Below, piece by piece: positions 23,856 through 61,364 of a stretch of 63,701 bases of DNA; the first letter of the stretch is position 1; each line of letters starts with the position of its first letter. Origin of the DNA: Propionimicrobium lymphophilum DSM 4903 (GTDB lineage Bacteria > Actinomycetota > Actinomycetes > Propionibacteriales > Propionibacteriaceae); NCBI RefSeq assembly GCF_000423485.1, contig NZ_AUIB01000010.1, forward strand, positions 1-63,701, read 5' to 3'. The translations under genes were made by a program, and so were the position numbers. Under the pieces are notes generated by a model, which had not been told where the DNA came from, made no database searches, and saw nothing but the letters and a program-made list of their open reading frames with translations.

Positions 23856-24551
23856 ATGAAGCGCAGTAAGCGTTATAACGAGTCGGCCGCTCTGGTCGAC
23901 GGCTCTCAGCTGTACACGGCTGAAGAGGCAATTAGCATCATCAAGCAGTACGGTGTTGGCAAGTCCGACGAGTCCGTCGAGGTTTCCATGCGTCTGGGTG
24001 TAGACCCGCGCAAGGCTGACCAGATGGTTCGTGGCACTGTCAACCTGCCTCACGGCACCGGCAAGACGGCAAGGGTCCTCGTCTTCGCTCAGGGCGCCAA
24101 GGCAACCGAGGCTGAGCAAGCTGGTGCGGACGAGGTCGGTGCAGACGAGCTCGTCGAGAAGATCAACGGCGGCTACCTCGACTTCGACGCGGTCGTTGCT
24201 ACCCCGGACATGATGGGTAAGGTCGGCCGTCTGGGTCGCGTCCTCGGTCCGCGTGGATTGATGCCGAACCCGAAGACTGGCACCGTCACCATGGACGTCG
24301 CCAAGGCTGTTTCCGACATTAAAGGCGGCAAGATCGAGTTCCGTGTCGATCGTCACGCGAACCTGCAGTTCATCATTGGCAAGCAGTCCTTCGATAAGGA
24401 CGCATTGGTGGAGAACTACCGCGCCGCTGCAGGCGAGGTGCTGCGTCTGAAACCGACCAGCGCTAAGGGTCGCTACGTTCGCAAGATCGTGATTAGCACG
24501 ACTTTCGGTCCGGGTGTCCCGATTCAGCCGACCGCTAAGGACGAGGCCTAA
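23856..24551 (+). CDS. rplA: 50S ribosomal protein L1
   Basis: L1 (231 aa) forms the mobile L1 stalk that moves E-site tRNA, and it commonly represses its own operon by binding mRNA. The signature [21 protein letters not shown] and [18 protein letters not shown] are present. It has GAAAGG before the ATG. A strong terminator follows, so transcription of rplKA ends here and does not continue into rplJL. Confidence 0.97.
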
Positions 24552-24561
24552 AACATTTTTG

Positions 24562-24595
24562 AAGGAGCGCAGCCTGCGGGCTGCGCTCCTTTTTT
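24562..24595 (+). terminator. Terminator after rplA
   Basis: AGGAGCGCAGCC pairs perfectly with its complement around a 4-nt loop, followed by six T. The T run merges into the first copy of the inverted-repeat element. Confidence 0.92.
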
Positions 24596-24713
24596 CTGCC
24601 AAACTTAACTCGCTAATACAGTGCTTCAGGCCGGAGTTTTGCGTTTGCCGTAGTCATAGGGTTTCGGATTGTGGGGGCCACGCAGATTTCGTTTTAAGCG
24701 TTGAGTTTGGCAG
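24596..24713. repeat. Inverted-repeat element, copy 1 (MITE-like)
   Basis: This 118-bp non-coding element begins CTGCCAAACTTAACTCGCT and ends AGCGTTGAGTTTGGCAG, so its ends are imperfect inverted repeats. The flanking T5 and A5 extend the symmetry. An internal block GTTTTGCGTTTGCCGTAGTCA is shared with copy 2. It follows the rplA terminator directly and lies 14 bp from the stop of the DUF559 gene. Confidence 0.75.
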
Positions 24714-24727
24714 AAAAATTAATTTGT

Positions 24728-25594
24728 CTATTGCCAGCTACGGCACTTCAAAGTTGAAGCGACTTGCTTGATCACTTCTTTGGGGGAGCGCCTAATGGCT
24801 CGCGGAGTGATGTGAAGGACTATCCACCCTTCTGCCGTGAGCAGGTTGTGTCGAGAGCGGTCCTCGTGAAAAGCGGTTTGGTTTAGGTGGTACTTTTCGC
24901 TGTCGATCTCGATCGCGACTTTCTGTTCTTCGAAAGCTATGTCGAGGATGAAATTCCTCCCAGAAATTTTTGTGGTTATGTTTCCACGCCATCCGGTTAT
25001 CCCGAAGGCGTTCAGTAGTTCTTGCATTTCGAGTTCGGGCAACGACCACGGATTCCCGCGAGCTTTAGTTACGCAGTCAAGATTCCTCAGCGATGACCGT
25101 TCCGGCAGTCGTTGGTAGGCCTTGATTAGGGATTCTGCGCTCACGACCTTTCTTCTGAGCGCCTCGCAAAGCGCAGAGTAGTCGTCGTTTAGGGACATGT
25201 GAAAAACAGAGATTTCGGGAGCTGCAACGAAGCCTGATCCCCAGGAAGTCTTGAGGTCATCGGGTATGGATGCCCTCGTGAAGCGAAACTTTGGGTACTG
25301 TCTGGCAGAAAACTGCGCCGATTGGCAGGCTGCAGTTATGAGTTCTGGCTTGAGATCAGGCATGAATTGGAGCTTTGCTGCGATTTCACCAAGCAAGACA
25401 AAATTCGGGTTGTAGATGAGCGCTGCGGCCGCCAAAGTAAGCGGGTCGTTTTCGAGGTGACTCTGGCAGTAAACACCCGGGAGGAGCTTCGTTATTTTCT
25501 TCGAAGCTGCGGCTTTTGCTAGCCCGTAGCGGACAGCTCTGTTGTCTTTGCTGCGTAAAATACCGGGTGCTGCGTACGAAAAGTGCTTCTTCAC
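24728..25594 (-). CDS. DUF559 nuclease-like protein with AbiEi-type N-terminal domain
   Basis: This 288-aa protein has an N-terminal winged-helix region resembling the AbiEi antitoxin domain (about 10-70, ITKLLPGVY) and a C-terminal DUF559 domain of the Vsr/PD-(D/E)xK fold (about 180-285). Candidate catalytic residues are E188, D218 (FILDIAF), E229 and D231 (AIEIDSEKYH), with DRSRHNLLTAEGWIVLHIT as the family's closing block. Many actinobacteria carry such genes, usually scattered; the function is unknown, possibly DNA cleavage or regulation. It runs antisense to the ribosomal operon, lies between two copies of the inverted-repeat element, and is visibly more AT-rich than its neighbours, all of which suggests insertion. 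No toxin partner is adjacent. Confidence 0.8.
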   Translation of the reverse strand: MKKHFSYAAPGILRSKDNRAVRYGLAKAAASKKITKLLPGVYCQSHLENDPLTLAAAALIYNPNFVLLGEIAAKLQFMPDLKPELITAACQSAQFSARQYPKFRFTRASIPDDLKTSWGSGFVAAPEISVFHMSLNDDYSALCEALRRKVVSAESLIKAYQRLPERSSLRNLDCVTKARGNPWSLPELEMQELLNAFGITGWRGNITTKISGRNFILDIAFEEQKVAIEIDSEKYHLNQTAFHEDRSRHNLLTAEGWIVLHITPRAIRRSPKEVIKQVASTLKCRSWQ

Positions 25595-25679
25595 GGCGTA
25601 ACCATTGTCGAAAGCGTGAAGGAAAAATCACCGTGACAACACTGAAGCGATGCTGCCAATGTTTACCAAGATAGTTTTC

Positions 25680-25798
25680 CTGCCAAACTCAACTCGCTAA
25701 CGCGACGCTACGGGCCGAAGTTTTACGTTTGCCCTAGTCAGAGAGTTTTTGGAGCAAAGCTGCTGCGCTGAGCCTCTTTTGAGCGTTGAGATTGGCAG
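25680..25798. repeat. Inverted-repeat element, copy 2 (MITE-like)
   Basis: This 119-bp element is in the same orientation as copy 1. Its ends are CTGCCAAACTCAACTCGCT and GAGCGTTGAGATTGGCAG, with A5 after the right end. The middle shares GTTTTACGTTTGCCCTAGTCA with copy 1; other interior bases differ. It lies between the DUF559 gene and the rplJ leader. Confidence 0.75.
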
Positions 25799-25829
25799 AA
25801 AAACGTGGTGTTGCAGCAATTTTGTCCTG

Positions 25830-26005
25830 CCTGGCCTATGGGCTAATGTTTGTCGAGCCGTAGACCGCAGGTGGAAACTTAATGCGAAAGCGCCCGCGCA
25901 GGTGCCGTTCTTGTGACGTTTAGTCACAAATACCCGGGCATCTGTGCGCCGGGTTTTCTTTTTCTACTCGCGCAACGCGGCGTTAATGAAGTGGAAGGAG
26001 AACCA
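25830..26005 (+). promoter_or_regulatory. L10 (rplJ) leader with attenuator-like terminator
   Basis: The leader contains GTAGACCGCAGGTGG, resembling the L10-binding kink-turn region of rplJ leaders, then a stem-loop ending in ACCCGGGC-ATCTGT-GC-CCGGGT-type pairing (25932-25954) followed by TTTCTTTTT. L10 or L10(L12)4 is known to bind such leaders and repress rplJL. The distal hairpin looks like an intrinsic terminator, suggesting attenuation. It is recognised from motif memory, not from a covariance model. Confidence 0.6.
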
Positions 26006-26626
26006 ATGGCGAGGCCAGATAAGGCAGCTGCTGTTGCAGAGCTGAAGGAAAAATTTAGCAACTGCGCCGCTGCTGTGCTGACTGATTACCGTGGTCTGAC
26101 CGTTGCTGAGATGAAAGATCTTCGTCAGCAGCTGGGTGCGGACACGAGCTACGCCGTTGCGAAGAACACGCTTGCTGCTATCGCTGCTAAGGAAGCCGGC
26201 ATTGAGGGTCTTGACGACCAGCTGGCCGGCCCGACCGCTATCGCCTTCATCAATGGCGATATCGCAGTTGCTAGCAAGACTATGCGTAGCTTCGCAAAGG
26301 AACAGCCGCTTCTGATTGTCAAGGGCGCTGTGCTCGAGGGCAAGGTTATGGACGCCGACATGGCGAAGAAACTTGCCGATCTCGAGTCCCGCGAGGTGCT
26401 ACTGGCCAAGCTGGCTGGCGGCATGAAGGCCAGCATGAGCAAGGCTGTTGCCACCTTCGCCGCTCCGCTTTCCAAGGCTGCACGCCTGGTTGGCGCCCTC
26501 GAAACCAAGGCCAAAGAAGACCCGTCGGTAATCGGCGGTGCAGGCGAGGCTGATCAGAAGCCGCAGGCGCAAGAAGCAAAAGAAGAATCTACCGATGTGG
26601 CGGCCGATTCCGCCGCGAGCGAATAA
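26006..26626 (+). CDS. rplJ: 50S ribosomal protein L10
   Basis: L10 anchors the L7/L12 dimers to the ribosome stalk base. The N-terminal RNA-binding part [17 protein letters not shown] and [16 protein letters not shown] is typical. At 206 aa it exceeds the usual 165-175 by an acidic, disordered C-terminal tail after the L12-binding helix. The start is ATG 26006 with GGAAGGAG upstream; the frame is open further upstream only across the leader. rplL follows after 26 bp. Confidence 0.96.
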
Positions 26627-50134: not shown

Positions 50135-50252
50135 TAGCCAAACTCAACTGAATAATCGTGTAGCTGCTGCGCACTTTTGTGTTCTCCCTTGTCGGAGCGT
50201 TTTGCAGTTTTTGATCCAGCCCCTGGGCGAATTTGAGCGTTGAGTTTGGCAG
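50134..50252. repeat. Inverted-repeat element, copy 3 (MITE-like)
   Basis: This 119-bp element has ends CTAGCCAAACTCAACT and GAGCGTTGAGTTTGGCAG. The interior is more diverged than in copies 1 and 2, but the ends are well kept. It abuts the T run of the tuf terminator, as copy 1 does with the rplA terminator. Confidence 0.7.
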
Positions 50253-60647: not shown

Positions 60648-61364
60648 ATGAGCAAAACTAACGAGCGACCAAGCCGTCGCCTCGCCCTGCTCGGCGATCG
60701 ACCCGGCTCGTACGCTATCGCCCGCCACGTGCGCATGAGCCCGATGAAGGTTCGTCGCGTTGTGAACTTGGTTCGCGGCATGGACGTCACTGACGCCCTC
60801 GCGACCTTGAAGTTCGCTCCGCAGGCGGCCAGTGAGCCGGTCTACAAAGTAGTTGCCTCTGCGGTAGCTAACGCTGAGGCCACCGAGTCGCTTGGCGCCG
60901 AGGACCTCTACATCTCCACTGCTTTCGTGGATGAGGGTGTCACGCTCCGCCGCATTCGCCCCCGTGCGAAGGGTTCGGCTAGCGCCATCCTCAAGCGCGG
61001 CAGCCACATTACTGTGGTTGTCGAGCCGAAGGAAGCCCGCGAGATCGTGCACAAGCCTGCGCCACAGCAGGGTAAGGCTAAGAAGCCGGCCGACGTCGCA
61101 GCAGCTGCCGAGACCAAGGTCGAGGCAAAGGCAAAGGTTGAGGAAAAGCCCGCAGCCAAGAAGCCCGCTGCTAAGAAGCCGGCAGCGAAGAAGACCGCTG
61201 CTAAGGCTGAAAAGCCGGCGGCCAAGAAGCCTGCTGCTAAGAAGCCGGCAGCGAAGAAGACCGCTGCTAAGGCTGAAAAGCCGGCGGCCAAGAAGCCTGC
61301 CGCTAAGAAGCCGGCAGCCAAGAAAGAAACCAAGCCCGCTACTGATAAAGAGAAGGAGGCCTGA
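60648..61364 (+). CDS. rplV: 50S ribosomal protein L22 with Lys/Ala-rich tail
   Basis: L22 (238 aa) has a globular domain (about 1-120, [19 protein letters not shown] and [12 protein letters not shown]) and a beta-hairpin in the exit tunnel. The C-terminal 100 residues are a histone-H1-like tail of AAKKPAAKK units. Tails on L22 are known in other actinobacteria. The ATG at 60648 has AAGGA 7 nt upstream; another ATG lies directly before it. The encoding DNA contains a 66-bp tandem repeat. Confidence 0.95.
61167..61326 (+). repeat. 66-bp tandem repeat within rplV
   Basis: Units begin at 61167, 61233 and 61299 (about 2.4 copies, each starting GCTGCTAAGAAGCCGGCAG or one base different). The unit is 22 codons, so copy-number change keeps the frame and lengthens or shortens the L22 tail. 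Confidence 0.85.

Follow-up and report, generated by a model that had tools for sequence, protein, structure and literature searches.

A solitary MTES_1575/DUF559 nuclease gene between two palindromic elements in the rplA-rplJ interval of Propionimicrobium lymphophilum, and its possible partnership with them

The nuclease gene and the rplA-rplJ interval

The window, meaning the whole stretch of 63,701 nt that was analysed, is contig C9 (NZ_AUIB01000010.1) of the 2.04-Mb genome of Propionimicrobium lymphophilum DSM 4903, which is assembled in 26 contigs. Between its genes for the ribosomal proteins L1 and L10 lies a solitary nuclease gene with one short palindromic element on either side, R1 on the left and R2 on the right (Table 1). 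A sequence-only reading of this DNA had proposed a DUF559-type nuclease gene antisense to its neighbours, and this was confirmed by the open reading frame and by Pfam matches above the curated cut-offs, namely MTES_1575 (E 2e-10, 41.1 bits against a cut-off of 38.2) and DUF559 (E 3.9e-6, 27.1 bits against 20.6). Both matches fall in the C-terminal third, and no other Pfam domain was found in the whole protein at E values up to 1. The same two domains were recovered from 18 family members, together with Vsr in one of them. The AbiEi model, whose name the sequence-only reading had also attached to the gene, matched none of the 18 at E 0.01, and that label is not supported. The gene was rightly described as richer in AT than its neighbours, with a GC content of 51.9% for the gene and 46.5% and 50.0% for the repeats, against 60.1% for rplA, 58.5% for rplJ and 57.7% for the window.

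Table 1 Features of the rplA-rplJ interval and the third element copy (positions in the window)
Feature	Position	Strand	Details
rplA (50S ribosomal protein L1), left neighbour	23856..24551	+	Open reading frame, relatives
rplA intrinsic terminator	24562..24595	+	Inverted match 24562-24591; R1 starts where the T run ends
R1, left palindromic element	24596..24713	+	118 nt; ends CTGCCAAACTTAAC...GTTGAGTTTGGCAG
MTES_1575/DUF559 nuclease gene, solitary	24728..25594	-	288 aa, GTG start; open reading frame call, Pfam, alignment
Codon of core residue E229	24908-24910	-	
Codon of core residue D218	24941-24943	-	
Codon of core residue E187	25034-25036	-	
Region upstream of the nuclease gene	25595..25679	.	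85 nt; CCGTGACAACACT at 25631
R2, right palindromic element	25680..25798	+	119 nt; same orientation as R1
rplJ promoter region and leader	25799..26005	+	Can be aligned to the short rplA-rplJ interval in relatives
rplJ (50S ribosomal protein L10), right neighbour	26006..26626	+	Open reading frame, relatives
Third element copy in the window	50135..50252	+	Single, not adjoining a nuclease gene

Three acidic residues, E187, D218 and E229, are identical in all 18 aligned homologues and are the putative catalytic residues. In searches of the PDB, a profile built from the 18 homologues matched the endonuclease-like protein 3hrl (E 4e-7) and the mobile intron protein 3r3p (E 0.008), the latter of which we take to be a Vsr-like homing nuclease. 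The window protein on its own gave a single chance-level match (E 0.53), and its single-sequence structure model reached a pLDDT of 38. PADLOC and NCBIfam returned only weak similarity, to part of much longer models. A study of conflict systems describes MTES_1575 as a Vsr-family REase that occurs fused to HEPN and other domains (PMC3710099). The gene has no second copy and no other homologue in its own genome, and homologues were detected at E 1e-20 in 39 of 56 other genomes of the family, in up to seven places per genome. A phage or plasmid origin was considered and rejected, since no phage record matched and four plasmid records matched only in part; a search of viral contigs, which reached close relatives only, found none.

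In ten relatives that were chosen for a short interval, rplA and rplJ are separated by 256-329 nt, which include the rplJ leader and a hairpin resembling a terminator. With R1 starting at the end of the terminator T run, no stray DNA in between, and R2 ending shortly before the part alignable with the rplJ leader region, the extra DNA relative to this short form consists of R1, the gene and R2. The window flanks joined together amount to 251 nt, compared with 288 nt in G012, which has the best RplA match (81%) and is too diverged for an exact insertion point to be read. The outer ends of R1 and R2 coincide with the interval 24596-25798 singled out in the sequence-only reading, and its description of one co-oriented repeat copy on each side of the gene agrees with the direct pair and with an insert that ends at the repeats. 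No Rfam family reached the gathering score in the stretch between R2 and rplJ.

The rplA-rplJ interval is a common site for extra DNA in this family. Both genes lay on one contig in 42 of 57 family genomes, the own genome included, with a gap of less than 600 nt in 19 and of at least 600 nt in 23; the notion that the rplKA and rplJL units are normally adjacent thus fits the former group and fails for the latter. Ranked by RplA match among genomes in which the interval could be measured, four of the top five have a short one (G012, G054, G016 and G066), and in the fifth (G072) it is 2255 nt long. For 80 named actinobacterial loci a gap was obtained in 61, one of them a mis-hit (L149), and 21 of the remaining 60 were under 700 nt; the best named RplA matches included an uncultured Propionibacterium MAG (79%) and Propionicicella (76%), both Propionibacteriaceae. 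A nuclease homologue lay between rplA and rplJ at none of 67 homologue places (33 genomes with both genes on one contig) and at none of the 80 named loci. Family-wide presence of the gene at this locus without the repeats, which the sequence-only reading had named as a finding that would refute it, was therefore not encountered.

The palindromic element in the own genome

R1 and R2 form a direct pair with 81% identity over 74 nt and matching right ends, or 73-74% over approximately 128 nt. Each of their ends is an inverted repeat of about 14-18 nt, CTGCCAAACTCAAC and its complement, adjoining A/T-rich sequence. The terminal inverted repeat TTTTCTGCCAAACTYAAC occurs at six places in the window when three mismatches are allowed, compared with 0.05 expected, and these six sites correspond to three complete elements, R1, R2 and the copy at 50135-50252. 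Ten good copies are present in the genome as a whole, nine that served to build a model and a tenth (C4:94147) that was found with it, and two of the ten adjoin the only homologue of the nuclease in this genome. Their ends read TCTGCC...GGCAGA, with no GTAG/CGTC foot. Measured between the outer ends, eight copies are 118-119 nt long and two are 108 nt long.

The interiors of the elements are near random, with a median identity of 50% over 45 pairs compared with 46% after shuffling. A short motif near CCCTAGTCAG nevertheless recurs at position 53-54 in seven of nine copies when searched as a pattern, and it is alignable in all nine. The most similar interiors belong to two unlinked copies (50135 and C6:48785, 66%), followed by R1 and R2 (62%). 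Ends, central motif and length are thus conserved and the remaining interior drifts. Since R1 and R2 share only 73% identity, nothing recent is seen at the rplA-rplJ locus. Two-sided changes in the stem were observed in only one of 16 pairs, and this near absence of compensatory change in the paired ends points to a constraint on the DNA sequence and not on an RNA. An RNA gene was accordingly rejected as a candidate, the stem being kept by sequence and no Rfam family matching the elements. The element was likewise rejected as a terminator, because the T run belongs after the rplA hairpin and not after the element.

Across a sample of 116 further family genomes, neither the pattern nor the model detected the element. 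Both exact element ends were absent from named genomes, and the exact ends were absent from viral contigs, in searches whose range may have excluded the records nearest to the own genome. The aligned copies, whose flanks are A/T-rich, displayed no clear or consistent target-site duplication. End-sequence searches of the own genome with short patterns yielded no longer element or autonomous parent with the same ends.

Besides the ten good copies, a weak match was obtained at C4:60483. The stretch C4:60483-60609 (L219) holds a relative of the element that has different ends, CCGTGACAAA...TTTGTCACGG, but shares its central motif, CTGACTAGGG, which the sequence at 25631 upstream of the nuclease gene resembles. 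In the own genome this other type of end, TGACAAA...TTTGTCA, is present once (C4:60488), and five of the 116 other family genomes have it too. At C5:135362-135377 (L085), the left end of a shortened element reads GGCAGAAAAATCTGCC, like the end of one element meeting the start of another. At 61143-61324 the window also carries a tandem repeat with a unit length of 66 nt, its units consisting of stretches that resemble AAGCCGGCAGCC.

Palindromes beside homologous nuclease genes

In a first comparison of flanks, eight of 33 other homologue loci scored higher than any of 150 mismatched flank pairs. The survey was then based on 40 nuclease genes, 28 drawn from those 33 loci (8 positive) and 12 new (4 positive), with control ORFs taken from the same 20-kb stretches; the controls are mostly ordinary chromosomal genes, and accessory genes might carry more repeats. 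With 220-nt flanks, matching repeats of at least 40 bits bracketed 12 of the 40 nuclease genes and one of 395 controls (P 8e-13). The count of 12 instead of 11 results from setting by hand the end of one gene (G054), which had been miscalled with 400-nt flanks and had scored 19 there. Lowering the threshold to 30 bits gave 15/40 versus 3/395, and 400-nt flanks at 40 bits gave 11/40 versus 3/437. According to kinship labels, the 12 bracketed genes are spread over eight genera. A fresh set of 20 mostly lower-scoring homologues, which together with the 40 covers 60 of the 81 other homologue places, contained four bracketed genes at 40 bits, compared with four of 201 controls (P 0.003). Taken together, the two sets indicate that nuclease and palindrome are genuinely associated, though only in some of the homologues and less strongly in the fresh set. 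No matching repeats reach 40 bits at 28 of the 40 homologues and at 16 of the 20 from the fresh set.

The bracketing repeats are mostly imperfect palindromes spanning about 50-100 nt, with a different sequence for each gene. Among the 12 bracketed genes, the repeats of one (G052, L254) were not called palindromes by the script and those of another (G044, L236) were called weakly and on one side. An inverted repeat with an arm score of at least 11 was found on one side or more of 25/40 nuclease genes versus 51/395 controls, and on both sides of 8/40 versus 2/395. The corresponding values for the fresh set were 9/20 versus 29/201 (P 0.002) for at least one side and 1/20 versus 0/201 for both sides.

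Three of the four control matches in the fresh set came from a single locus, L318. Two of those four belong to adjacent ORFs at L318:2837-5081 (G055), whose flanks match at 248-273 bits and which seem to have arisen by duplication of a gene in place. The strongest control match in the survey with 400-nt flanks was an ORF of G051 (L237:3764-4531 and neighbours) flanked by direct repeats of 88.9% identity over 90 nt; the script called no palindrome in them.

Dispersed copies of bracketing palindromes were detected in two further genomes. A 420-kb sample of G062 contained the two bracketing and three dispersed copies of its palindrome, all exactly 76 nt long. A 480-kb sample of G003 contained two bracketing copies of palindrome P234 and four dispersed places, and the four copies displayed (one bracketing, three dispersed) are each 72 nt long; in the same sample P231 had one dispersed copy and P233 had none. 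A reversed-query control gave no match in either genome, and seven of the eight dispersed copies lie outside any called ORF. A de novo search for long palindromes with at least two copies gave four families in the G003 sample and two in the G062 sample, the largest in each being one that brackets a nuclease gene. A second G003 family brackets another nuclease gene, and a third looks by eye like the palindrome (GTGCGCAT...CTAGCTGGAG) that belongs to yet another. In each sample, one two-copy family is linked to no known nuclease gene.

Flanks were also compared across genomes. Similarity of at least 40 bits was seen in 7 of 68 gene pairs whose proteins are at least 45% identical. The corresponding counts were 1 of 140 for protein identities of 40-45% and 0 of 1497 below 40%. 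Five of the seven (four G013-G050, one G048-G066) involve genes that are unbracketed at 40 bits and thus show shared surroundings only, so that two G003-G042 pairs are the only ones with bracketing palindromes; palindrome P231 of G003 matches the G042 flank at 75% over 80 nt. Six of the seven pairs were checked and all lie in largely syntenic stretches, and vertical descent thus explains them. Flank sharing among orthologues therefore offers weak support for a pairing of nuclease and palindrome, and the finding that unrelated nuclease genes have unrelated flanks stands. In the 40-45% range of protein identity, L247 (G018) and L250 (G056) share 74 nt of flank at 85% (85 bits) with proteins 44% identical, and neither gene is bracketed at 40 bits.

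In G050, a 1306-bp block is duplicated at 99.3% identity (L241:9255-10560 and L242:9521-10826) in different surroundings. It contains a DUF559-type nuclease gene and an upstream repeat, and is a recent copy of such a unit.

The nuclease as a possible partner of its palindromes

Nuclease genes of this kind thus occur with bracketing, gene-specific palindromes, dispersed cognate copies, near-constant element length and conserved nuclease residues. Because homologues are bracketed and cognate palindromes are dispersed, the nuclease is likely a partner, perhaps the driver, of the palindromes rather than a passenger. The nuclease gene and its two palindromes may accordingly be one genetic unit, in which the nuclease would be the trans-acting partner of a small family of non-autonomous palindromic elements, a reading to which we give slightly better than even credence. 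In such a mechanism, each nuclease would recognise its own palindrome through the terminal inverted repeats and their fixed spacing, and would cut or nick there. Repair or replication could then copy the short palindromes to new, mostly intergenic sites, and R1 and R2 would be either the gene's own ends or copies kept beside it by the same reaction. Recognition, cleavage, copying or mobilisation, and the agency of this nuclease and not of another enzyme, are inferred. More tentatively, and with the balance somewhat against it, the MTES_1575/DUF559 Vsr-like nucleases may be the enzymes of a new REPtron-like class of selfish systems. Each would recognise a palindrome of fixed length specific to it and spread this palindrome through nicking, or through cleavage followed by repair, and no transposase or recombinase of a known type would take part.

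The main rival is a composite MITE of the TIME-COMP kind, in which another transposase moves the palindromes and the nuclease gene is cargo that came by chance to lie between two of them. This would fit the short elements with inverted-repeat termini on either side of the inserted gene. Genes with a MITE on each side are a known arrangement (PMC4133298; PMC10969869), and the nearly identical second copy of the G050 unit is also in keeping with this explanation. However, chance cargo would not predict that different repeats bracket the same gene family in several genera, and no longer element with these ends turned up in the own genome, so that this explanation is unlikely. The passenger role that the sequence-only reading had assigned to the gene, mobilised by or trapped between non-autonomous repeats, becomes the weaker view for a similar reason: homologues elsewhere have bracketing palindromes of their own that are unrelated to these, and the association thus goes with the nuclease rather than with any single family of repeats. 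As a whole, that interpretation was partly supported.

A further alternative, quite unlikely, casts the nuclease as a defence or toxin-like enzyme for which the palindromes serve as operators or as sites of self-protection; these would be retained next to the gene and would owe their dispersal to another process. Fixed spacing, conserved ends and a diverged interior do resemble protein-binding constraints, and the conflict-system context of the HEPN-fused MTES_1575 REase would suit such a role (PMC3710099). Two-sided copies together with dispersed copies of constant length nevertheless exceed the needs of an operator, and the similarity to defence models is weak and partial. Coincidence, in which an ordinary accessory nuclease gene was inserted in an interval that often holds extra DNA and the repeats arrived on its two sides independently, is disfavoured by the homologue survey and very unlikely: ten elements placed randomly in 1200-1800 intervals would yield neighbours with a 5-7% chance, but the bracketing recurs in homologues, the R1-R2 interiors rank second in similarity, and nothing stray lies between the rplA terminator and R1.

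MTES_1575/DUF559 genes are common in this family and are filed under unknown function. If they are partners of palindromes, the role of these solitary nucleases meets the question of what spreads species-specific palindromes without a RAYT. Each bracketed gene would then predict its own DNA substrate from the adjoining sequence, which offers a direct test. Within the open-access literature searched, no paper was found whose title or opening of the abstract tied DUF559 or MTES_1575 nucleases to palindromes.

Among known systems, the element shares with MITEs its short, non-coding form and terminal inverted repeats. Correia/NEMIS, RUP and ERIC elements are described as MITE-like, non-coding sequences of less than 200 nt with inverted-repeat ends, often intergenic (PMC2229807). 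The present element differs from them in having neither TA ends nor a clear target duplication, in being found so far in one genome only, and in the two copies that bracket a nuclease gene. In TIME-COMP structures, a gene is enclosed by a miniature element that is present on both sides (PMC4133298; PMC13367494). Their bracketing elements are identical or nearly so, derive from Tn3 and are accompanied by 5-bp duplications, whereas R1 and R2 are 73% identical and have no known parent. Pfam membership, conserved acidic residues and the profile match to 3r3p align the protein with the MTES_1575/DUF559 Vsr-like nucleases and the Vsr-like homing nucleases; unlike the latter, it is associated with no intron or interrupted host gene, and its gene stands alone between palindromes.

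The closest parallel in arrangement is offered by RAYT (TnpA-REP) and its REP/REPIN sequences, for which the literature describes one gene per palindrome type, flanked by its palindrome, with cognate copies dispersed intergenically (PMC2817692; PMC3116915; PMC6006769). In the same manner, the window nuclease gene is flanked by palindrome copies, as are 12 of the 40 homologues at 40 bits, and cognate palindromes are dispersed in the own genome, in G062 and, for two of three palindromes tested, in G003. The enzyme, however, is an MTES_1575/DUF559 nuclease and not an HUH-Y1 transposase. The elements are single units of approximately 50-120 nt that lack the GTAG/CGTC foot of REPs, and they number about ten, compared with the more than 100 copies usually given for REPs (PMC2817692). 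With another enzyme family and no REP foot, this system is no RAYT, but its mode of action may be similar.
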